This document shows positions 4,549-47,424 of a DNA stretch of 64,000 nt, piece after piece (position 1 is the first letter of the stretch; the number at the start of each line of letters is the position of its first letter). Source of the DNA: Actinoplanes sp. NBRC 103695 (GTDB lineage: Bacteria; Actinomycetota; Actinomycetes; Mycobacteriales; Micromonosporaceae); contig NZ_BSTL01000022.1 in NCBI RefSeq assembly GCF_030269485.1, positions 1 to 64,000 of the forward strand, in the 5' to 3' direction. The notes under the pieces were generated by a model, which was given only the letters and a program-made list of their open reading frames with translations, did no database searches and had not been told where the DNA came from. A program made the position numbers and the translations under genes.

Positions 4549-5442
4549 ATGTATCGACGCGGAGTCAGCAGCCGGACGCGCAAGCTGTTGATTGGAGGTG
4601 CCGCCGCAGCGCTGCTCGGCTCGGCGCTCGCGGTCGGCACGGGGATGAGCCAGGCCGCCGAACAGGGTAGCTCCGGTGACATCAGCGCTTCGGTGCCGGC
4701 GCTGGGTTTCAGCCCGGGCGATCCGAACGCGACGGCTGACCGCGTGGGCCCTACCGGGGTGAAAGTTCCCGGTCGTTGCCCACCCACTCAAGCCCAGGTG
4801 AACGCGCAGGTAGCGCTCAAGAATGCGAACCTTCCGAGTGGAACGGACCTCGAAAGCCGCATCCAACGTTTTGAAAAGACCTTGTCGGCGATTCAAGACT
4901 TGAAATGCCCCGCATCTTCCACGACTTTGCTGGGCCGCTTGAATTCCTTGACCGCGCTGCGCGGAAACGCGGATCGCGATAACGTCCTGCGTGGTTTGGG
5001 TTTAAATGAAACGCCAGCGGATAGAGCCGCCGCCACTGGATCCGGTGACGCGGCCGCGGGTGGAGCGACGGGGAACGCCGGAGCCGGCTCCGGTGACATC
5101 AGCGCTTTGGTGCCGGCGCTGGGTTTCAGCCCGGGCGATCCGAACGCGACGGCTGACCGCGTGGGCCCTACCGGGGTGAAAGTTCCCGGTCGTTGCCCAC
5201 CCACTCAAGCCCAGGTGAACGCGCAGGTAGCGCTCAAGAATGCGAACCTTCCGAGTGGAACGGACCTCGAAAGCCGCATCCAACGTTTTGAAAAGACCTT
5301 GTCGGCGATTCAAGACTTGAAATGCCCCGCATCTTCCACGACTTTGCTGGGCCGCTTGAATTCCTTGACCGCGCTGCGCGGAAACGCGGATCGCGATAAC
5401 GTCCTGCGTGGTTTGGGTTTGAATGAAACGCCAGCCGGATAA
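4549..5442 (+). CDS. Secreted protein of two near-identical 116-residue repeats
   Basis: A 297-residue exported protein. ATG 4549 is preceded by GAAGAGGAG; frames extending to 4468 lack such a site. An Arg-rich N-terminus and hydrophobic segment (LLIGGAAAALLGSALAVGTG) form a signal peptide ending near QAAEQ. The mature part is two copies of one domain (SGDISA.VPALGFSPGDP ... VLRGLGLNETPA), residues about 42-157 and 181-296, joined by a Gly/Ala linker. Each copy has two Cys (GRCPPT and DLKCPAS), perhaps one disulphide, and a predicted helical core. I do not recognise the domain. The DNA of the two copies is almost identical, so the duplication is recent or kept uniform by recombination. It stands alone. 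Confidence 0.8.
   Translation: MYRRGVSSRTRKLLIGGAAAALLGSALAVGTGMSQAAEQGSSGDISASVPALGFSPGDPNATADRVGPTGVKVPGRCPPTQAQVNAQVALKNANLPSGTDLESRIQRFEKTLSAIQDLKCPASSTTLLGRLNSLTALRGNADRDNVLRGLGLNETPADRAAATGSGDAAAGGATGNAGAGSGDISALVPALGFSPGDPNATADRVGPTGVKVPGRCPPTQAQVNAQVALKNANLPSGTDLESRIQRFEKTLSAIQDLKCPASSTTLLGRLNSLTALRGNADRDNVLRGLGLNETPAG
4671..5018 (+). repeat. Tandem direct duplication, copy 1
   Basis: This 348-bp segment recurs at an offset of exactly 417 bp (5088-5435). I see only about two mismatches, for example TCG/TTG early and TTAAAT/TTGAAT at the end. The offset is a multiple of three, so the reading frame is kept. Confidence 0.95.
5088..5435 (+). repeat. Tandem direct duplication, copy 2
   Basis: Second copy of the 348-bp unit at 4671-5018. 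A 69-bp Gly/Ala-coding linker separates the copies and is not itself duplicated. Confidence 0.95.
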
Positions 5443-5589
5443 AGCCGCGCGGGGAACGCGGGCCGCAAACGCGCCAGCGAAATGAGCGGCTCGCAGAGCG
5501 GCGCCGCGTACAACGGCAACCTGATCTTTCGCGGATCCTGATCCACCGCACGGAACCGCCTCGCCGGAGGCCCTCGCACCACGGGGGGT

Positions 5590-6170
5590 CTCCGCGCGTC
5601 CGTGTGTGGGTCATGCGCGCGGTGATCTTCGGCTACTTCGGCGCGCTGACCGACCCCGGCGATGAGGAGCATCGCGAGCCCCTCGCGCACCGCACCGGCG
5701 AGCTGCTCGGCGTCTGCTGGCCACGGTTCTCGGGCGTCGGCGGCGTCCAGGGCCGCGCAGGTGGCACTCACTCCGTCGTCGGCGGCGTCCCGGGTGCGGT
5801 GGCCGTACAGATCCACCGTGGCAGCCACGTTCTTGTGCCGCAGTGTCTGGGACACCACCGCCGGCGGCACGCCTTGGTTGATCATGATGGTGGCCGCGAT
5901 GCGCCGCAGGTCGTGCACCCGATGGCCGGCAGCCCGGCGTCGGCGGTGAGCCGGCGTCGGTGGTCGAGCACGTACTGCGGCAGCAGGGATTGCTCGTCGG
6001 GCCGGGCGAACACCGGGCCCAGGTCGTCGTAGTCGCGGGCAGCGAGCCGCTGGCGGCGCTGGCGGCGGCGTTGCCGCTGCAATGCCGCGATAGCCCGGTC
6101 GGACAACGCGACCCAGGCCCGGCAGCCCTTGGTCTTGGGCGCGTTGAACATGCTGCGGCTGTTGTCGACG
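5590..6170 (-). pseudogene. Integrase (tyrosine recombinase) catalytic-domain remnant
   Basis: On the minus strand one frame (about 6170-5930) reads MFNAPKTKGCRAWVALSD, LGPVFARPDEQSLLPQYVLD and LTADAGLPAI. After a one-base loss near 5928 a second frame continues VHDLRRIAATIMINQGVP, VVSQTLRHKN and TVDLYGHRTRDAADDGVSA. These are the core and HxLR.../LGH...Y parts of phage-type integrases. The N-terminal half is missing, and the final Tyr region (DLYGH) is preserved. It is non-functional. This is a different integrase lineage from the remnant at 2275-3139, so at least two separate elements have been here. Confidence 0.8.
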
Positions 6171-6280
6171 CCATCGAAGGCGTAAATGGAAACCAACCTT
6201 CGAACACCCGCCGCGCAAACCCCCAGCCCAGACGATCGTGCAGAACCCCACCTGCCAGACCCCACTTCCCGCAAACGACG

Positions 6281-6314
6281 AAGGGCCCGACCTCTCCGTG
6301 GAGGCCGAGCCCTT
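6281..6314 (-). terminator. Terminator hairpin downstream of the protease gene
   Basis: Arms 6281-6294 and 6301-6314 pair at 12 of 14 positions with a 6-base loop. It lies 22 bases past the stop codon of the minus-strand protease gene at 6336. Confidence 0.7.
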
Positions 6315-6335
6315 CACCTAGGGCTGTCGATCAGG

Positions 6336-36325: not shown

Positions 36326-39300
36326 TCACTGTCCGGCGACCAGCTTCCAGGCCAGCGCAGCCGGATTGGCGATCGGGTCCTGCGAGCTTCCCTCGTTGAC
36401 AACCTCGAAGGTCAACGTGTTGACACCGGGGCGCAGCTGCACCGCCGCCGATCCGGCCTCGGTGAAGCCCGCGGTCAGCACGGTCGCGCCGTTCAGCCCG
36501 GCGGTCACCACGTCGTCGCCGGCGGCGTACAGGCGGGCCGGTTTAGCGGCTTGCGCCGCGCTCACCGTGACCGTCGCGGTGAACGTCGCCTGATTCTGGC
36601 CCGGTGTCAGCAGGCGGCGGGTCCAGATCCACGGTGCGTCCGGAACCCTGGCGTACGTCCCAGCGGTGCACAGGTTTCGCGCGTCGAGCGCTGTACAGCC
36701 GTTGTGGCCGTGGGTCAGCTCGCTCACTCCGGTGGCGCCTGCCGGATCCTTCCATGCTGACCCGGCCTTCGAAGCGCCGAGCACCGCGCCGTCGCCGATT
36801 TCGCCCGCCGACTGCGCCACGATGGCCGCGGCGGCCGCCTGCTGGTCGCCGCTGAGCGCGACGTCGAGAGCGCAGGCGTCGAGCAGTTTCTGGTCGGTGA
36901 TGCCGGCGGCGGCGCAGGCGGCGCGGGCCGCGTCACGGTTGGCGCCGGGCACGCTGTTCAACGGTAGGTCCGCGTACGGGAAGGCGAAGTCCGTGAAGGT
37001 CGAGGTGTCCTCACCGGCTTCGTAGTCGAACAGTGACGTCTCCGGCGTGACCCGCCAGACCTCGGGGTCGTCACCGACCTCGCCCAGCAGACCCCGCAAC
37101 GATCCGCGCTGGGACTCCGGCGCGCCGGCCGTCAGGTTGAGTGCCGAGCCGGGATCGTAGTCGACCGCTAGATACGTGCCGTCGGCTCCGCTCACGGTCA
37201 CCCGCCGCGCGTTCGCGTCCAGCGACACTGTGCCGCCGCCGGACAGTTGGGCGGTGCCCGCGGCGAGATCCACGGCCGTGCCGTCGACGAGGGTGCGGAC
37301 GCCGGAAGCGGTGAGGTAGACACCGATCCGGTGCCCGCCTGTGCGCACGGCCACGGCCGAGTTGACGCTGACCACCCGCGAACCGTTCCACGGACGCTGC
37401 CGCACCTGGATCTCGAGCTCATCCACCGTGGATTTCACCGCGGTGAACTCGCCGACCCGCTGGAAGTCGTAGCTCACGCCGTCGAACGTCCGGAGGTGCG
37501 GATCACCCCAGGAGACGGTGCAGAGGCTGCCGCAGAACGGTGCCGGCGGGGCGTCGACATCACCGATGGCGACCGGCGGCGGCAATTCGGCGTTGACCTT
37601 CAGCGGGAATGTACGGCTCGCAGTGCGACCCTCGGTGTCCTCGACGACGACGGCGACCGTGGCGGTGCCCTCGCCGGTCGGCTTGCCGGTGATCCGGCCG
37701 TCCTCGCCCATCGTGAGGCCTCCCGGCAGGCCGGTCGCGGACCACCGGTACGGCTCGGCGCCGGCCGTCGCGGACATCCCCATGGCGTAGTCGATGCCGA
37801 CGAATCCGTCGTTCAGCCGGGCCGTCGTGATCTGGAACGCCACGCCCTCGCGGACGGTCAGCCGGATCGTCCCGGTCGCGGTGCGGGACTCAGCGTCGGT
37901 GACGCGAACCGGGACATCGAACGTGCCGGCCGCCGTCGGCGTGCCGCTCAGCGCGTCGCCGACGACGGTCAGGCCGGGCGGGAGCGCACCGGTGGCTGCC
38001 CATGTGTACGGCCCGGTTCCGCCGGTGGCTTCCAGCTGAGCGGAGTACGGCGCGCCGACGGTCGCGTCGGCCAGCGGGTCGCTTGACACGGCCAGGCCGT
38101 CCGGCCCGCACCCGAAGAAGGGCCGGTCGATCGTGTTCGACTGGACGTTCGCCACGGTCGCCTGCTGCTTGGCCAGGGTCTTGCCGAACAGGCTGAGGTC
38201 GGCGCTGACCCGCGCGGTCAGGTACGGACCGAAGGTGATCCGGCCCGGACACGGGGCGGTGAACGTGCCGGACAACCCGGCTTCGGGGCGGATCGTCGGC
38301 CCGGCCAGCCCGAATACGGCGGCGCCGATGCGGGGCTCGATGTAGACCGACGCCGAGCCCGACGCCTCCGCGCCACCGTTCAGCGGGCTGACGATCGTCG
38401 CCGTGGCCGACGCGGTGCCGATGTCGAAGACGCGGCCGTCGCGGTATTCGAAACCCGCCGTCGCGTTCGCGGTGGCGTTCGCCGACCAGGTAAGGGATCC
38501 ACCGATCTTGGCGCGTAGCCCGGCGTCGAGGCCGATCGAGGGAACAACCGGGATGCCTCCCGGCAAGAAGATCACGCCCATCTGGATCGGGCGGATCACG
38601 TCGTGCTTGACGTAGCTGAGCTCGCCGGCCGCGCTGAACTTGGCGGAGGCGCCGACCTCGACGGTGTCGCTGACCGCCCAGCGCATCGACTGGAGCTTGC
38701 CCTTCGGCAGCTGGCCCCACTTGACCTCGACACTGATGCGGACGGTTACGTCGAGAGTCGCGTAGACCTTCGCGTGCACCTCGCCGTCGAAGGACAGTGT
38801 GCCGCTCCCGTTGGCGCCGCTGGTCGTACGGTCGGCGGCGAGCTTGAAGGACTTGTCCAGCGCTGGGATCTCGATCGCCTTGCGCAGCCGGGCCGCGCCG
38901 GGCGTGGTCGGCGCGGCCGCGGCCTCGCCCGGTGTGAGCGGCACGTCGGTCAGATTGATGTCGGCCTGCAGGAAGGCTTCGTCGAGCGCGGCCGGGACGG
39001 TGCCCACGACCGTGGCCGAGCCTTTGCGGCGCACGTCCGTGACCCGCCGGAGCAGGCCCTGCGGTGTCGTGGGGCTGATCCCGGCGACCACCACGTCACC
39101 GGTCTCCAGCCCGGGGGCTCGCGTGAACGTGAGACTGTCGCCGGCGACACGGCTGATCGACTTGAGGACCTGCGCCGAGGGTTTCACAACGTCCGGCGAC
39201 AGCACGGTGGCAGCGGCCGGTGGTGCCTTGACGGTGAACGTCACCGTGGCCACCGCTGTCGTGTCGCCCCAGGTGCGGACGCAGGCCAGCAGCGTGTGCC

Positions 39301-39685
39301 GGCCGGCCGGGGCGGATGTCGTCATCGACCAGGTGCGGCTGCCGTCACGGTTCGGCCTGCGGGTGATCTCGGCCGCGCCGATGCTCTGGTCGTCCGCATA
39401 CAGCTCGACCCGGCGGACCAGGCCGGCAAGACCACCACGAAAGGCGCCGGCGATCGCGATCTCCGGCGTCTTGGCGGTGTCGACCGTCGCACCCGGGCGC
39501 GGGCTGGTGATGTTCACGGTCAGCAAGCGGGCCTTGCCGGCCGCCACGCATCGCGGAGCGGGTCGCTGAGCGGCCGCTCGATCTGGTGTCGCAGCGTCCG
39601 CCGATGGCGGAACCCCGATGGCCAGACCGCCGGCGACCAGGACCGCAACTGCCAGCGACGCTGTGCGCCGCCACGATATGAGCAT
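36326..39685 (-). CDS. Large secreted protein with Ig-like domains and a von Willebrand type D domain
   Basis: A 1119-residue exported protein. The signal peptide (SLAVAVLVAGGLAIGVPPSADA) is followed by a Big-type Ig domain (residues about 55-150), a large beta-rich region of about 350 residues, and two cadherin-like putative-Ig modules (GTGPYTWAATGALPPGLTV, AGAEPYRWSATGLPGGLTM). A von Willebrand type D domain starts near residue 745 (CTVSWGDPHLRTFDGVSYDF, then QRVGEFTAVKS), and a C-terminal beta domain ends the protein. Bacterial VWD proteins are little studied; a surface or matrix adhesion role is an inference. ATG 39685 has GAGGGGCG upstream. Its neighbour is the Wadjet operon on the other strand. 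Confidence 0.85.
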   Translation of the reverse strand: MLISWRRTASLAVAVLVAGGLAIGVPPSADAATPDRAAAQRPAPRCVAAGKARLLTVNITSPRPGATVDTAKTPEIAIAGAFRGGLAGLVRRVELYADDQSIGAAEITRRPNRDGSRTWSMTTSAPAGRHTLLACVRTWGDTTAVATVTFTVKAPPAAATVLSPDVVKPSAQVLKSISRVAGDSLTFTRAPGLETGDVVVAGISPTTPQGLLRRVTDVRRKGSATVVGTVPAALDEAFLQADINLTDVPLTPGEAAAAPTTPGAARLRKAIEIPALDKSFKLAADRTTSGANGSGTLSFDGEVHAKVYATLDVTVRISVEVKWGQLPKGKLQSMRWAVSDTVEVGASAKFSAAGELSYVKHDVIRPIQMGVIFLPGGIPVVPSIGLDAGLRAKIGGSLTWSANATANATAGFEYRDGRVFDIGTASATATIVSPLNGGAEASGSASVYIEPRIGAAVFGLAGPTIRPEAGLSGTFTAPCPGRITFGPYLTARVSADLSLFGKTLAKQQATVANVQSNTIDRPFFGCGPDGLAVSSDPLADATVGAPYSAQLEATGGTGPYTWAATGALPPGLTVVGDALSGTPTAAGTFDVPVRVTDAESRTATGTIRLTVREGVAFQITTARLNDGFVGIDYAMGMSATAGAEPYRWSATGLPGGLTMGEDGRITGKPTGEGTATVAVVVEDTEGRTASRTFPLKVNAELPPPVAIGDVDAPPAPFCGSLCTVSWGDPHLRTFDGVSYDFQRVGEFTAVKSTVDELEIQVRQRPWNGSRVVSVNSAVAVRTGGHRIGVYLTASGVRTLVDGTAVDLAAGTAQLSGGGTVSLDANARRVTVSGADGTYLAVDYDPGSALNLTAGAPESQRGSLRGLLGEVGDDPEVWRVTPETSLFDYEAGEDTSTFTDFAFPYADLPLNSVPGANRDAARAACAAAGITDQKLLDACALDVALSGDQQAAAAAIVAQSAGEIGDGAVLGASKAGSAWKDPAGATGVSELTHGHNGCTALDARNLCTAGTYARVPDAPWIWTRRLLTPGQNQATFTATVTVSAAQAAKPARLYAAGDDVVTAGLNGATVLTAGFTEAGSAAVQLRPGVNTLTFEVVNEGSSQDPIANPAALAWKLVAGQ

Positions 39686-40037
39686 GTCGAACGCCCCTCG
39701 AGACCCGTGCGGCCCGACCGGCCGCTACCTGCCACCTCCAACCGGAGGGAGCAGGGTCAGGTTTCGGGCGACCATTCAAAGCGGTGGAAGTTCCACCCGA
39801 GTGGCCAGACCAGATCCCTCGTGCGCGAATGCTCCGCGCCGGTGGCGTGCCTCCGCGGCGATAGCCCAGGGTCCGCATCCAGGGTCGGGCACCTTACCCA
39901 AGCGGACCTTTGCTCAGTCTCGATCTCGTGACACTGCCCGGTTCAGTCGGAAGGGCATCGGCGAGCACCGCAGGCAGGAGTGCCGGCGGCAATGGTGAGG
40001 TCTTCAGTGTCGTACCTGCGCCGTAGGCTCTGTGTTG
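39686..40037. promoter_or_regulatory. Divergent upstream region of the VWD gene and the jet operon
   Basis: About 350 bases without a gene. TAGGCT at 40024-40029 fits the actinobacterial TANNNT -10 form and lies nine bases before ATG 40038, so the jet transcript may be leaderless. No convincing -35, repressor palindrome or toxin-like small gene was found. Confidence 0.45.
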
Positions 40038-41540
40038 ATGGTTACGCGAGGTGTTGAAGGTGCCTACCAGGGTGCGCTTCGGGCTTTTCAGAACCCGATG
40101 CTCGCCCTGCTTCATCAGATGCACGCGCCGTTCGTGGTGACGGTGCTGGCAACGGTCTTCACCGCGGAGCGCCCGACTGTTGCGGTGGTGGTCGCGCATG
40201 CGGAGATCAACGACGCCCTTGATCAGTTGCGGGCTGCGGGCTACGGCGACGAGGACAGCCAGCCGCTGCCCGCGGGAAACGCGCGCGATCTCTGCCGGCA
40301 GTGGGTGCAGGCGGGGTGGTTGGTGCGACAGGTGTACGACGACGATGTCGAGGCGTACCGGCTCTCGGCGTACGGCGTCGGTGCACTCGAGGTCGCCGGA
40401 CGGGTCGGCGGAGCGCGTACGAGGGTGTCGGAGTCGCGGGTCAGGACACTGCTGGAGGCGATTGAGCGACTGGCCCAGGACGCTGATCCGGACCTGATGT
40501 CCCGGATGGTGCGCCTGCATGAGGAGATCGAGCAGCGGCGGAAGGAGCTGACCCTGCTCGAAAAGGGCGGTGCCGTCGAGACTGCCGACGACGAGCAGCT
40601 GCTCGAGGAGGCCGAGAACGTGTTGCACCTGGCGCGCGAGCTACCTGCGGATTTCGCTCGCGTGGCCGAGTCGATCAAGGCCATTCAGCGCGACGTTGTC
40701 GCGGAGTTGCGGCACGACGTACGGCCCACCGGTGAGGTGTTGCGCGAGTACCTTGCGCGCGGCCAGCGAATCCTGGATGCGACACCGGAGGGCCGCGCGT
40801 TCGCGGGGGCGCTGCGCCTGATCGGGGATCCAGCGCAGATCGATGACCTGTGGGGCCAGCTACGCACCGTGCTGCGGCACCGGTTCACCGAGCTGCTGCC
40901 GCCGCAGCAGCGGCGTGAGCTTACCGAGATATCGCGGCGGATCGAGCAGGGGGTCAAAGAGGTGCTGGCCGCCCAGAGGCAGGCATCGCATGTCATCACC
41001 ACCCAGGTTCGCAACCACGATCCGATGCGGGACCGCCAGGTGGACGAACTGCTGAGGGACGTGATGTCGGGCCTGCACAAGTGGGTTCCCGGCTCTCGCC
41101 GCGGCGAGGCCGTCGAGCCGCTGCGGCGCCTGCCGGTCGCCGACGTCGGGCACCTGCGCCAGCGGATGAGTGACCTGCGGCCACCACAGCCGCCCACGCC
41201 ACTGCGGGAATGGGACGAGACCGAGGACCTGCCGGCTGCGGACACGCGGGCATGGGGCGGCCCTCGGTACGCCGAGTTGCATGCGCATCTGGAAGCGTTC
41301 GCGGGCGGGGCGCCGAGTGTGGATGTCGTGGCCGCGTTCCGCGCAGCGAGCGAGGAGATCCGACGGCCGGTCGATCTGCTCGGTCTGCTGGAGATCGCAC
41401 ATGACACCGGGATGACCGAGACGGCCGAGGTCGTGGTGGTGGACACGGTGCGACCCGATCGGACTCGCAGACGGTTCGCTCTCGGCAGTGTGGTGGCGGC
41501 GAATCCGGCTGTCGGGGACGGGAGCGATGGGGATGAGTGA
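40038..41540 (+). CDS. jetA: Wadjet component JetA (DUF3375; MukF/kleisin-like)
   Basis: A 500-residue kleisin-like subunit of the type I Wadjet anti-plasmid complex. Near the N-terminus it has [20 protein letters not shown] and [12 protein letters not shown], the start of DUF3375 proteins (winged helix), then [20 protein letters not shown] and a long helical part ([20 protein letters not shown]). JetA bridges the SMC dimer and binds JetB. ATG 40038 chosen; GTG 40032 is the alternative. It overlaps jetB by eight bases (ATGAGTGA), starting a four-gene translationally coupled operon. Confidence 0.9.
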
Positions 41541-42204
41541 GCCGGTCGGCGTCGACGATGGCCGGCCGGCGGGCATGGCGGCCGGGTTCATCGACCCGGT
41601 TCCGATGGAGGAGGATCCGGCCGAGCTGTTCGCCGGTGACGCGGGCACGTTGGACGCGGACGTACGACGGGTGCTGGTCCAGTTGTTGCGACGTAAGTTC
41701 CTGCTCGCCGAGAAGAACTCGGCGCAGTGGCGCACGTTGCTGGAGAACCAGCAGATCATCGAATCGCGTATGCACGACCTGTTCGTGCGCCTCGTGGTCG
41801 ACCACGATCGAGGTGTCGCCTACAAGCAGCAGGTGCGGTCGGTGGAGCTGGACGTGCCGATCCTGCTCAAGGACGACCCCTACAACCGGGCCGAGACTCT
41901 GGTCCTGGTACACCTGCGGACCGTGTTCCAGCGCGAACGTGGCACGGGTGAGACGTCCGCGCGGGTGGACATCGAGGAACTGGAGCAGACCGTGCTGACC
42001 TACTTCGACCCGCACGACCACAACCTGGCCCGGCGCCAGCTGGAGGTGCGTAACGCCGTGCAGCGGCTGGTCACCGAAGGTCTGCTGGCCGAGGAGTCCG
42101 CGGGCCGGTATCGGATCACCCCGATGGTGGAGGTCGTGCTGAGCACGGAGAAGCTCGCCGAGCTGGACCAGTGGCTGCGCGAACAGAACGAGGCCACCGC
42201 GTGA
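41533..42204 (+). CDS. jetB: Wadjet component JetB (DUF4194; MukE/KITE-like)
   Basis: A 223-residue small subunit, second gene of the operon. The DUF4194 pattern is visible: [20 protein letters not shown] and [15 protein letters not shown], with a winged-helix end ([38 protein letters not shown]). In Wadjet it acts as the MukE-like partner of JetA. ATG 41533 has GGAGCGATGGGG upstream. Its TGA overlaps the GTG start of jetC by four bases. Confidence 0.9.
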
Positions 42205-45200
42205 GCATGATCGACACGCTGTTCGGGCTGGTCCCGGCAGCGTCGCGAGGTCAGCAGTGGGTACTGCGGGATCTGCAACTGGTCAATTGGGGCGGCTACG
42301 ACGGGTACCACCACCTGCGGCTTGCGCCTGGCGCGACCCTGCTGAGCGGAGGTTCCGGATCAGGTAAGTCGACGCTGATGGACTCGTACATCGCTTTGCT
42401 CATGCCGCACACGACTCCCTTCAACGGGGCATCCAACGGCGGAGTGGTCGGCCGGCCGCGGGGCAAGGACCAACGCAACATCCTTTCGTACGCGCGCGGC
42501 AAGCTCGACGAGTCCCGCACCGACGGTGAGACGAGGTTGCGGGTGCTGCGTGGCGACGGCCGCGACACCTGGTCCGCCATCGCGATGACCTGGGTGGACC
42601 ACACCGGGGCCGAGTTCACCGCGCTTCGGGCCTGGTACGTTCCGTCGTCCGCCCGCAGCCTGGATGACGTCGCGGCGGTACGCGCCACCTGTGACCACGG
42701 CTATCAGCTGCGGGAGCTGGAGGGTCCGGCGAGCAGGAAGTTCGCCCGTGACGACGTCGAGGCGACCGGCTTGAAACTGCTTCCCACCGACCGGGAGTTC
42801 ACCGCGCGTCTGCACACCACGCTCGGTATCGGCGCCGCGGGCGACGGGCACAAGGCGGTCGCGTTGCTGGGACGGATCCAGGCCGGCCAGCAGATCACCA
42901 CGGTCGACGCTCTGTACAAGACGATGGTCCTGGAGGAGCCGTCCACGCTGGCCACTGCGGACGCGGTGGTGCAGCAGTTCGACGAGCTGTCCGGCACCCG
43001 GGCCCGGATGATCACAGCCCGCCAGCAGGTGAAGGCGTTGACCCCGATCCGCGAGCACCGGCGAACCATCGACGAATCGGTGGACCGGTTGCGCTCGATC
43101 GACGAGATCGGATCCTTCACCGATGCGTCCTCCCCGGCCGCGTTGTGGCGTCACCAACGCCGCCTCGACCTGCTGCGCTCGGCAGAGGGGGATCTGGACC
43201 AGCGGCACCGCCGAGCCCAGGAGGAACTGGCGGAGACGAACGCCTTGGTCGCCGCGGCCGAGGCACAGCGCGACGGGGTGGCCGACACCATTCGCGCGTC
43301 CGGTGGCGACCGCATGGAGACCGCGCAACGAGAAATCCGCGTCGTGGAGCAGCGGCTGGGCGACGTCGAACGGGCCCGGGAGCGACTGGACCGGGCACTG
43401 GTCACGATCGGGGCCTCTGTCTCAACCGGTGCCGACTTCGCCGGACTGGTCGAGACGGCGCATCGCTCTCTGGCCGACGTCGACGCCCGGCGGACTGCTC
43501 AGAACGCGTACGCCGAGGCGGTGGCGGAGAAGAAGGCGGCCGAGCGAGAGCTGGAAGGGTTGCTCGCCGAGCGCAACGCGGTCAAAGGCCGCCGGGGCAA
43601 CATCCCGACAGACCTGCACGCGGCTCGCGCGGCGTTGGCCGAGGCTGCCGAACTCGGCCCCGAGGACCTGCCGTTCGTCGGCGAGCTGATCGAGGTGCGG
43701 ACGGAGTTCGAACCCTGGCGCGAGGCGTTCAACCTGGCGCTCGGCGGATTCGCCACCCGGATGCTGATCGACATCGGCAGGTTGAGCACGTTCCGCGAGG
43801 CGATCGACTCGGTGCCGACCGTACGGCGGGTCCAGTTCGAGGGCGTACGCACGGGGCTGCGTGACGAGGTCGGACTCGACGGCAGGACTCTCCCCGGCCG
43901 GCTCGACTACCGGCCATCGCCGTTCACCGCCTGGCTCAAGGGCGAACTCGCCCGCCGGTTCGCCTTCGTCTGCGTCGACACGCCCAGGCTGCTGCCGCAG
44001 TACGCCAAGGCACTCACGATCACCGGCCAGACGTCGGACGGTGGCCGGGGCGCGCACGGTGGCCACGGCCGGCCCAATGTGCTCGGCTTCACGAACGGCA
44101 GGACGCTCGCCCAACTCGAGAACCGGATCAGCCTCGCACGCAATCGCTCCGCCGACGCCGTCGCGGGGGTCTCGAGAGGGGAGGAGAACCTCAACTCGGT
44201 GGAAGCCAGACGTACGACCTATCAAATCTTGACCGAGTCGTCGTGGGATCAGGTGGATGTCGACGCCGTCCGGGCGGAACAGAAGCACTGGAACCGCGTC
44301 ATCGACGAAATCCGCGCCGGCAATCCGGAGATCGATCAACTGCAGCACCGGCTGGACGACCTCAAGCAGCAGGTCAGGGATCTGACCGAGCGGGTCGGCC
44401 GGCAGAAGGACGCCGTGAAGGCGGTCGGTGAGTCATGGGCGTCGACTGTCGACGAGGTGGACAGCGCCCAGCTGGCGCTCGACAACGCCGCCGAGTCAGG
44501 CGTCGACCTCAGCCCGGAACACCAGGACTACCTGGAAACCCTGTTCGACAGCGAGACGGACGGCACCAGCCCGATAGACGTGCTCGCGCGGTTCGACGCC
44601 GGCGTGAAACGCGCCGCCGAGCGGCTCGACACCGACCGGCGCTTCGCGACGGAGTCGATCGGCCGGTCGAGGAAGGCGCTGCTCGACACGTTCTCGACCT
44701 TCCTCGAGCGCTGGCCGAACCCGAACCTCGGCATCGACCCGGATGCCTCTTACCGCGACTTCGACCACCTGCTCACCGACCTGCAGACCAGCGGCCTGCA
44801 CGAGCTGGAGACCGAATGGCGCGACAGTCTGCTCAACCTGTCCGGCAACGACCTGACCGGCCTGGACAGCGAGCTCGCCGCAGCGGTCCGGGAGATCCGC
44901 GACCGGATCGACCCGGTCAACCGAATCCTCGCCGAACTGCCGTTCGCCGACGACGAACACCGGCTGCGCATCGACCCGCAGGAGAGTCACTCCACGGCGC
45001 GCGCCCGCTTCCGCAAGGAGTTGCGCGACGTACGCGCCTTCATCGATCAGGCCGCGACAGAGGACGACCGGGAACGCGCCTATCATCGGATGGCCAAGGT
45101 GATCGACCGCATCCGCCGCGCCGCGCCGGATTTCGCCGACCTCGTCGACGTGCGCAACCATGTCCGGATCAGTGCCGAGAAGATCGACCTCGACGGTACG

Positions 45201-45545
45201 CACGTCGCCGTCTACGACCACATCGGTGAGAAGTCCGGCGGCGAGTCGCAGGAGCTCGTCGCGTTCATCGTCGGCGCCGCGCTGCGTTACCAGCTGGGCG
45301 ACGCGGGCGCTGCCCGTCCCCGCTATGCCCCGGTCTTCCTCGACGAGGCGTTGATCAAGGCGGACGCGCATTTCACCGGCCGAGCCATCGGCGCGTGGCG
45401 CGGACTGGGCTTCCAACTGGTCATCGGCGCCCCGAACGACAAGCACAGCGCGATCGAACCACACGTGGACGCGGAGTACGTGATCCTCAAGAACGCCCAC
45501 GGCCGATCCTGGGCAAAGCTCCTGGTCGGTGTCCCGGACGCATGA
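42201..45545 (+). CDS. jetC: Wadjet component JetC (SMC/MukB-like ATPase)
   Basis: A 1114-residue SMC-like motor that extrudes DNA loops in Wadjet. Walker [10 protein letters not shown] is at residues 50-58, after the typical [20 protein letters not shown] opening. Long coiled coils occupy about 270-470 and 640-900 around a hinge-like region with [14 protein letters not shown] and [14 protein letters not shown]. The ABC signature SGGESQE is at about 1012-1018 and the Walker [11 protein letters not shown] at about 1045-1054, with catalytic Glu following Asp. GTG 42201 overlaps jetB (GTGA); ATGA overlaps jetD. All ATPase elements are intact. Confidence 0.93.
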
Positions 45546-46807
45546 GAGGGCTCAGCACCCCACAGGACGCCGTCGCGGCTGTCCGCAGCAGGATCGAACA
45601 GAAGTGGGAGGAGGCCGCGTGCGCGGAGCTCGGTGTCGGCGACCGCGTCGTGTTCTCCGTCCGGCTCCGCCCGGGGGTGAGAACGGGCAAGGCTGTTGAG
45701 CAGCTCGGGCACACCACCTGGCATAGCTGGCACATGCAGTGGCGCGACTTCTGCGATCGGCTTCCTGCCGGCGTGGAAGTCGTCCGCACCGCGGTGACGA
45801 TCCGAGGCGTCGCCGGCGATTTCCCGGCCGTGCTCAACGCAGACCTGGACGGCGCCGCCACGCTCGTCGCCGACACCCGCAACGGTGCTGAACCCCTCGC
45901 CGTGGACATCGGCCGGGCCCGTGCGCTGGCATCGACCCTGCAATCCGCCGGCGCCACCCTCACCCCGGCCACGCTGCGGGCCGTCTACGGCCTTTCCGCC
46001 AACGACGTTGACGTGCTGATCAACGCGGTGACCTGGCTACGCCGGCACCCCGACGCCGGCAGCTGGACGCTGCGGCAACTTCCGGTGCCCGGGATGCACA
46101 CCAAGTGGCTCGACACTCACGGCGCATTGCTGCGTGACGTCACCGGACGCGATGTCCGCGACGAAGTCCGGCCGCGGCTGACCGTCATGCACCTGACCTA
46201 TGTCGACCCGGGCCATGCTGCGTCGGGCCGGCGGAGGCACGACGCCTGGACCACCGGGGACGTGCACGACATCGCCTACCAGCCGCGCGTCGTCCTCGTC
46301 GTGGAGAACCGCGATTCCCGCCTCTGGTTCCCCGCGGTCCGCGACACGATCGTGGTCGAGGGTGGCGGGAAGGCCGCAGCCGCCCTGCTCGCGAACGTGC
46401 CCTGGATCCGCTCCGCGGATCACGTCGTCTACTGGGGCGACATCGACGCGGACGGGTACGCGATCCTCGACCACTTCCGCGCCACGCTCGCCGTGCCCGC
46501 GCCGGACGGGGCGCCGGCAAAACATGTCCCCTCGATCCTCATGGAAGCCACCGACCTGCACCACTACTCCCCGCATGGCGTGAACCACGACAAGGCCGGC
46601 CGGCCCATCAAGCCGTCAGCGGAGCTCTTGCCCCATTTGACCGAAGCCGAGACCGTCGCGTACGCCACCATCGCTACCGCGGGCCCGACCCCTTTTCGCC
46701 GGATAGAGCAAGAAGCCATCCCTCTCACCCACGCCGTAACTCAACTGCTACGGATCATGAGAGGACAGGGATCAGATTCGCGGCGCTCACGTGCGTCGTG
46801 GCAATAG
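45542..46807 (+). CDS. jetD: Wadjet component JetD (DUF3322/DUF2220, Toprim nuclease)
   Basis: A 421-residue nuclease that cleaves circular DNA trapped by JetABC. The N-terminal DUF3322 region (residues 1-200; KVEQLGHTTWHSWHMQWRDF-like block, GRARALASTLQSAGATLTP) precedes the Toprim domain, where Glu255 in VVLVVENRDSR and the Asp300-x-Asp302 in YWGDIDADG are the expected metal ligands. The extension FRRIEQEAIPLTHAVTQLL closes it. ATG 45542 overlaps the jetC stop. It is the last gene; no terminator is obvious after it. Confidence 0.9.
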   Translation: MRGLSTPQDAVAAVRSRIEQKWEEAACAELGVGDRVVFSVRLRPGVRTGKAVEQLGHTTWHSWHMQWRDFCDRLPAGVEVVRTAVTIRGVAGDFPAVLNADLDGAATLVADTRNGAEPLAVDIGRARALASTLQSAGATLTPATLRAVYGLSANDVDVLINAVTWLRRHPDAGSWTLRQLPVPGMHTKWLDTHGALLRDVTGRDVRDEVRPRLTVMHLTYVDPGHAASGRRRHDAWTTGDVHDIAYQPRVVLVVENRDSRLWFPAVRDTIVVEGGGKAAAALLANVPWIRSADHVVYWGDIDADGYAILDHFRATLAVPAPDGAPAKHVPSILMEATDLHHYSPHGVNHDKAGRPIKPSAELLPHLTEAETVAYATIATAGPTPFRRIEQEAIPLTHAVTQLLRIMRGQGSDSRRSRASWQ

Positions 46808-46976: not shown

Positions 46977-47275
46977 GTGCGCGCGTCGCGGCTGAGCGCG
47001 CGGATGACCGAGCGCGCCTACCGTGACGAGTACGTCCGGGAGGACCGGCTCTACCCGATGTGGCGGTTGCTGCTGGTTTCCGGGCTGCGGCGCGGGGAAC
47101 TGTGTGGTCTGCGTTGTGGTGACCTGGAAACGGACCAAGGGGCGCTCAAGGTGTGCCGGCAGATCGTGGTCGAGGACCCTGGCAGCAGACTGCGGGTGAA
47201 GCCCCCGAAGTCCCACAACAGCGTGCGCACGCTGGTACTCGATCCGGTTACCCGGTGTACGCGGAGTAGGTGTGG
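46977..47275 (+). pseudogene. Tyrosine recombinase fragment beside the Wadjet operon
   Basis: Reads EDRLYPMWRLLLVSGLRRGE and LCGLRCGDLETDQGALKVC, then KPPKSHNSVRTLVLDPVT. It is the first part of an integrase catalytic domain with the conserved Arg in SGLRRGEL. Both the N-terminal and the HxxR/Tyr parts are missing, and the end switches to unrelated sequence near 47245. A third, separate integrase scar in this window. Confidence 0.8.
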
Positions 47276-47424
47276 CCGTAGGTGTAGCTGTGTAGCTCGT
47301 AGCCGAGCCCGTAGACCTTCTTGAGATCCTCGATCGCCTTGAGCTGAGCCTTGCTGTGCCGGCTAGCGCTCGACTCTACTTCGCTGGCGGAAAACGGATC
47401 GAACCCTCCTAAAATGGTGAAAGA
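47248..47424 (-). other. C-terminal coding fragment, family unknown
   Basis: The minus strand reads LGGFDPFSASEVESSASRHS, KAQLKAIEDLKKVYGLGYEL and HSYTYGHTYSAYTG then TAA. It looks like a real protein end rich in Tyr and Lys, unusual for this GC-rich neighbourhood, with no start codon. An AGGAGG lies inside it but no usable start follows. Probably debris trapped beside the integrase fragment. Confidence 0.35.

Follow-up and report, generated by a model that had tools for sequence, protein, structure and literature searches.

Type I Wadjet systems (JetABCD, also named MksFEBG or EptABCD) are plasmid-defence operons, and studies of characterised examples (PMC12647877, PMC10586767, PMC12287153) describe a mechanism of loop extrusion and plasmid cutting. 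JetABC, which comprises a kleisin, a KITE protein and an SMC ATPase, would be loaded onto DNA as a motor dimer that extrudes loops; where the DNA is a small circular plasmid, extrusion would run to completion until the motors meet and stall, and the stalled motors would switch on the JetD Toprim nuclease, which would cut the plasmid. In published work, jetABCD and plasmids are treated for Bacillota (PMC12287153), Corynebacterium glutamicum MksBEFG is reported to act on plasmids and is contrasted with Pseudomonas aeruginosa MksBEF (PMC7083940), a 'Wadjet' consisting of JetA, JetB and JetC only is tabulated for Paenarthrobacter lasiusi (PMC11719660), and loss of JetD leading to a condensin has already been proposed for P. 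aeruginosa MksBEF (PMC10586767). In the open-licence literature, to which our search was confined, we came across no description of jetD being lost repeatedly while jetABC is kept. Here we describe a jetABCD operon in a stretch of 64,000 nucleotides from Actinoplanes sp. NBRC 103695 (contig NZ_BSTL01000022.1, positions 1 to 64,000; hereafter the window), which is very probably an intact type I Wadjet that spreads among actinomycetes as a self-contained unit carrying its own promoter.

The four reading frames lie on the same strand in the order jetABCD, as the first-pass annotation had claimed, and overlap by eight nucleotides at jetA/jetB, by a GTGA at jetB/jetC and by an ATGA at jetC/jetD (Table 1). 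The profiles expected of such an operon (DUF3375, DUF4194 and DUF3322/JetD_C) and the ATPase models of JetC all match above the curated Pfam cut-offs, JetA scoring 367.8 bits with PF11855 (cut-off 28.6) and JetB 137.1 bits with PF13835 (cut-off 32.7; the searched JetB protein starts one codon upstream of the ATG), and all four proteins match solved Wadjet or MksG chains. The best PADLOC models are of type I throughout (JetA1, JetB1, JetC1 and JetD1), with JetC2 at merely 3.3e-4 and JetD3 at 5.8e-7, in agreement with the annotation's view that the type is not new; a search of NCBIfam at E 0.001 left JetA, JetB and JetD without a match. The best solved match of JetD is MksG (8b7f), which aligns with a profile of 14 JetD sequences at 5.8e-25 over positions 21-400, and the JetD matches of many relatives stop near residue 406. 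JetD is 35-87% identical to 13 aligned homologues, and its Glu255 pairs with Ala248, the mutated residue of PDB chain JetD(E248A), as counted along the phmmer alignment. None of the catalytic residues on which the annotation had rested its case (Walker A, signature and Walker B of JetC, Glu255 and Asp300/Asp302 of JetD) is missing. Having an intact jetD, the operon does not fit the definition of MksBEF as a system with no nuclease, and the host genome (10.8 Mb in 180 contigs) holds a single DUF3375 match and a single JetD match. The operon is an intact type I Wadjet and by itself ordinary; by analogy with its family it would extrude loops, cut plasmids and be active as a plasmid barrier in its Actinoplanes host.

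Across 67 genomes of Actinoplanes in the wide sense, a relative of JetC is found in 21 and the subfamily of the window operon (78-100% identity) in 17, its own genome included, a patchy presence that we count as support for a mobile cassette. DNA similarity between the window and the 16 other Actinoplanes copies begins at positions 39910-40022 and ends at 46807 or earlier, and outside the operon there is a single match longer than 150 nucleotides (67.8% over 264 nucleotides, in L029), at a non-corresponding place. A genome of another order (G1047) shares only 64.0% identity in ScpA with the host, and its JetA, JetB and JetC are 89.8, 89.7 and 83.3% identical to those of the window, whereas two congeners (G002 and G007) are 91.9 and 90.1% identical in ScpA and 78.1 and 77.6% in JetC. 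Because the ScpA and JetC identities are thus inverted between relatives, these comparisons indicate that the operon has spread horizontally between actinomycetes. In the JetABC tree, family f19 occupies two places, one set standing with Actinoplanes (starred branch, 99) and another, which includes Actinomadura, standing separately. As to vehicles, a tblastn search with JetC against 72,556 plasmid records gave no match of at least 60% identity (15 weaker matches were seen), and 50,697 phage records gave one match of 28%, so that neither plasmid nor phage carriage was retained. The phage match, a record from human faeces (MT835499.1), is a JetC relative covering 78% of the query. One Actinoplanes genome (G037) holds two type I-like Wadjets from separate branches (L031 and L042), their JetC being 87% and 26% identical to that of the window, each with a JetD match.

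A TANNNT hexamer ends 7-10 nucleotides before the jetA ATG in 42 of 42 loci, the window included, and exactly 8 nucleotides before it in 36; at random positions of the same loci the background frequency is 0.6%. These loci were selected for a JetC of at least 70% identity, a jetA match starting at residue 1 and the presence of 60 bases of upstream sequence, with duplicates removed. In 11 aligned Actinoplanes copies the invariant upstream columns start about 30 bases before the ATG. The hexamer, which is also retained in the tested jetD-less loci, is probably a promoter element that travels with the operon, and the jetA transcript is likely leaderless because the distance from hexamer to ATG is so short. 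The hexamer emerged from comparison among loci, a scan with the sigma-70 consensus having found no promoter at the jetA upstream site. A terminator-like match at 40015-40027 overlaps it and was taken as chance.

Several observations count against an intact operon that travels as a unit. Two congeners show no inversion, with ScpA and JetC identities of 86.5 and 88.3% (G040) and of 90.1 and 87.5% (G021). JetD resembles the Escherichia coli GF4-3 chain JetD(E248A) weakly (E 0.0051 as a single sequence, 3.7e-7 as a profile), and its best solved match, C. glutamicum MksG, is described in PMC10123090 as slow in vitro and not MksBEF-dependent.

More interesting than the operon itself is the pattern of jetD loss in its family, from which we infer that jetABC may have a nuclease-independent job. 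JetC relatives were sampled from 394 genomes of the class, 398 of the family to which G202 belongs and 345 of the order to which G101 belongs. Neighbourhoods were taken for every one of the 46 genomes whose near-complete JetC reaches 50% identity or more, for the genus loci, for named loci and for 34 of the 59 more distant rows (33-41% identity, E <=1e-133), the 34 being chosen before jetD was examined. After removal of seven loci with identical jetC, 118 loci became 111 distinct ones. Left out of the 118 were distant loci with a JetC of about 26% and a matched JetD (L040-L042), loci from the same records as L028 and L037 (L043 and L047) and loci whose JetC is cut by contig ends (L064 and L066); L039 and L024, the latter because its range contained a stop, were excluded from alignment A2. 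Searched in six frames with a 402-position JetD profile, the 111 loci contain a complete jetD in 50 cases, a partial one in 3 and none detected in 58, and among the 17 Actinoplanes loci jetD is present in 13 and lost in 4. By length (440 codons for JetA, 180 for JetB and 1050 for JetC, a test blind to frame breaks near the end), jetA, jetB and jetC are all open in 59 of the 61 loci without a full jetD, jetB being short in L104 and L107; among the 50 jetD-complete loci, jetA is short in L090, at a contig end, and in L128. An otherwise complete operon (L036, in G025) has a break in the jetC frame near codon 1040, missed by the length test, which is either real or a sequencing error.

Changes in jetD state appear to be losses, not gains. 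Distances between JetD and between JetC sequences of the 50 complete loci have a rank correlation of 0.92 (as high in 0 of 999 permutations), although only 32 of the 50 have their nearest JetC neighbour within the closest three by JetD. Debris of jetD immediately follows jetC in nine loci (L028, L030, L045, L049, L050, L052, L071, L085 and L086), compared with one weak match in 61 in a reversed-sequence control; six further loci with short weak matches were not counted. A tree of the joined JetABC proteins (FastTree, long branches flagged) requires jetD to change state 22 times, and starred branches force 21 of these changes; the mean after shuffling is 37. If regain is forbidden and the tree is rooted at its midpoint, there are 27 losses, 17 of them inside the 75-locus clade of the window. 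Loci with and without the nuclease stand as sister pairs (for instance L111/L110, L027/L028, L048/L049 and L074/L086).

The genes left behind appear to remain under constraint. Median ratios of nonsynonymous to synonymous substitution rates (dN/dS; pairwise Nei-Gojobori on sister pairs picked by hand from the tree) for JetA, JetB and JetC are 0.124, 0.233 and 0.142 in 16 jetD-less pairs, 0.111, 0.158 and 0.215 in 14 jetD-bearing pairs, and 0.153, 0.253 and 0.209 in 9 mixed pairs, which include the partial/jetD-less pairs L045/L071 and L052/L053. By these medians JetB is looser and JetC tighter without jetD; between the intact operons of the window and L023 the values are 0.108, 0.115 and 0.209. 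All 58 jetD-less JetC proteins have canonical Walker A, signature and Walker B motifs, and among the 50 accompanied by jetD one has a gap at Walker B. Positions conserved in the presence of JetD and lost in its absence number one in JetA (null mean 1.1) and none in JetB or JetC, nothing beyond chance, and the idea that JetABC carries traces of a lost JetD interface was accordingly rejected. An IFDR motif is reported in PMC10586767 to touch JetD; most loci, whether or not they have jetD, retain an LF.GD stretch close to the N-terminus of JetB, with variants such as YF, CF and AF.

We consider it rather likely that the jetABC core has a job of its own that does not involve the nuclease, such as chromosome or plasmid organisation of the MksBEF kind, with JetD an optional add-on, so that complete operons would be armed and their jetD-less relatives disarmed but working condensins. 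Such a job would account for open jetABC genes in nearly all of the loci with an absent or remnant jetD, for repeated state changes on the tree, and for low dN/dS, canonical ATPase motifs and a conserved upstream hexamer in operons that lack the nuclease. A search for JetD_C through whole genomes points the same way: no match was found in 55 of the 61 genomes with a jetD-less or partial locus (14/17 and 41/44), the same search detecting 9 of 9 jetD-bearing controls (3/3 and 6/6). The exceptions hold short pieces (G070 and G603) or full copies (G071, G082, G571 and G609). On the other side, jetD states cluster on the tree, and a single loss therefore covers many jetD-less rows; constraint on JetB is weaker where jetD is absent; the recent losses in Actinoplanes and Actinomadura could be early decay; and all loci were located via JetC, so that operons with a broken jetC are under-sampled. 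The missing excess of sites lost along with JetD also tells against it. These data point to a kept job for jetABC without jetD and, because there is no such excess of sites, give no support for a changed one.

The form without the nuclease is near-universal in one genus (g96) of the family of G202, which we take to be Microbacteriaceae because Gulosibacter falls in it. A JetC of the 34-39% clade occurs in 53 of its 57 genomes, in one of them (G1171) in broken pieces only. JetD_C occurs in 23 of the 57: it adjoins a second JetC, of 28-31% identity, in all 17 genomes having that type, and the main 34-39% copy in 0 of 53, although in G1183 JetD_C does lie beside an additional 34% copy. The 23 loci of the 34-39% type that we examined have no JetD match (0/23), a JetA and JetC of near full length and a JetB aligned from residue 1-24, with a common downstream gene in 10 and a common upstream gene in 8. 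The genus thus holds two Wadjet-like families, one near-universal and without jetD at the main copy, the other patchy with jetD adjoining. In a second genus a JetC gene is present in 7 of 7 genomes. All 32 genomes tested for ScpA contain it, 29 of these having a jetD-less or partial locus, and nuclease-less JetABC is therefore additional to Smc-ScpAB; replacement of Smc-ScpAB was rejected on the same count.

It is less easy, and in our view unlikely, to explain the pattern by jetD loss as the first step of decay, in which jetABC degenerates only after the deletion of a nuclease that is costly because it causes autoimmunity or keeps out useful plasmids. The debris behind jetC implies that some deletions are recent, the short jetB genes belong to jetD-less loci, and locating loci via JetC would hide operons with a broken jetC; moreover, a spontaneous Clostridium mutant with better plasmid uptake is described in PMC12287153 as having lost a region with jetABCD. 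However, in the old jetD-less clades all three genes remain full-length and their dN/dS is low, which argues against decay there, and nearly every species of g96 carries a jetD-less jetABC.

That jetD-less relatives still cut plasmids, by means of a nuclease encoded elsewhere in the genome or of a different effector next to jetABC, is very improbable: the JetB LF.GD stretch persists in most of them and 6 of the 61 genomes (3/17 and 3/44) have some JetD_C match, four of these full-length, but the remaining 55 have none, and no neighbour family recurs in more than 4 of the 111 loci, although coverage upstream of jetA extended to only some 0.6-1 kb in most of L067-L146, and an upstream partner could be missed there.

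In this family JetD behaves as a detachable module, lost many times from operons whose jetABC remained open and constrained. Returning to a jetABC core with a job of its own, we lean, by a modest degree, towards a broader view: the nuclease of actinobacterial type I Wadjets would have been deleted about 20 times or more, with jetABC retained each time, and in some lineages the disarmed complex would have become a vertically inherited, near-universal condensin beside Smc-ScpAB. If so, condensins of the MksBEF type have been born repeatedly and recently from plasmid-defence operons, and JetABC must therefore already be useful without cutting. The pattern is relevant to the proposed origin of MksBEF condensins from Wadjet through loss of JetD. 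The sister pairs with and without jetD offer natural material for asking if condensins of the MksBEF/MukBEF kind are descendants of defence systems and if JetABC is active on DNA when the cell has no JetD.

The first-pass annotation had placed an intact copy amid a region full of degraded mobile DNA. The copy is intact; the description of the region was overstated, as a Pfam scan of 30 selected open reading frames outside the operon found two weak tyrosine-recombinase remnants (Table 1), the other 28 belonging to ordinary chromosomal families or having no match. No tRNA that might mark an insertion site occurs anywhere in the window, and repeats at 34-54 kb are short or imperfect only, so that long flanking repeats were likewise set aside. 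Adjoining the operon, a protein of 1119 residues (36326-39685, minus strand) combines a pair of Putative Ig (He_PIG) stretches with a von Willebrand factor type D domain.

Table 1. Features of the jetABCD operon and its surroundings, in window coordinates, with the evidence for each (E-values follow the model or chain named).
Feature	Position	Strand	Evidence
Tyrosine-recombinase remnant	5310-6317	-	Phage_integrase 8.5e-7
-10-like hexamer TAGGCT, probable promoter	40024..40029	+	8 nucleotides before jetA ATG; comparison among loci
jetA, kleisin (DUF3375), 500 residues	40038..41540	+	Pfam PF11855 1.1e-109; PADLOC JetA1 1.4e-208; PDB JetA 8dk1_A 4e-15
jetB, KITE (DUF4194), 223 residues, ATG start	41533..42204	+	Pfam PF13835 6.1e-40; PADLOC JetB1 6e-110; PDB JetB 8dk1_E 1.7e-6
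jetC, SMC/MukB-like ATPase (SbcC/MukB-type), 1114 residues, GTG start	42201..45545	+	Pfam AAA_29 7.8e-20, SbcC_Walker_B 1.8e-21; PADLOC JetC1 E printed as 0, 1655.9 bits; PDB JetC 8as8_A 1.6e-45
JetC Walker A, residues 50-58	42348..42374	+	Motif check and alignment
JetC ABC signature SGGESQE, residues 1012-1018 (KSGGESQE, S at 1012)	45234..45254	+	Motif check and alignment
JetC Walker B FLDEA, residues 1046-1050	45336..45350	+	Motif check and alignment
jetD, DUF3322 and Toprim nuclease, 421 residues, ATG start	45542..46807	+	Pfam JetD_C 2.8e-28, DUF3322 1.7e-16; PADLOC JetD1 1.3e-72; MksG 8b7f 9.4e-16
JetD catalytic Glu255 codon	46304..46306	+	Aligned to position 248 of JetD(E248A); Glu in 53/54 aligned JetD
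JetD Asp300-Ile-Asp302 (Toprim DxD, within GDIDADG)	46439..46447	+	D300 in 54/54, D302 in 53/54 aligned JetD
Tyrosine-recombinase remnant	46977-47324	+	Phage_integrase 1.6e-4; starts 170 bases behind jetD

The window operon resembles the type I Wadjets of E. coli GF4-3 and P. aeruginosa PA14 in gene order, protein families, ATPase motifs and the Toprim Glu and DxD residues, and its JetC aligns over nearly the whole length (1.6e-45). It differs from them as a distant actinobacterial branch, JetD matching merely at 0.0051 by phmmer, and in a hexamer so near jetA that the transcript is probably leaderless. MksBEFG of C. glutamicum and EptABCD of Mycobacterium smegmatis are the same system under another name, the order mksFEBG corresponding to jetABCD and MksG (8b7f) being the best JetD match; polar localisation via DivIVA is reported for the C. 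glutamicum complex (PMC10123090, PMC7083940). The jetD-less relatives resemble the nuclease-free MksBEF of P. aeruginosa, being kleisin-KITE-SMC operons in genomes that also hold ScpA, and the window operon differs from MksBEF in having JetD.

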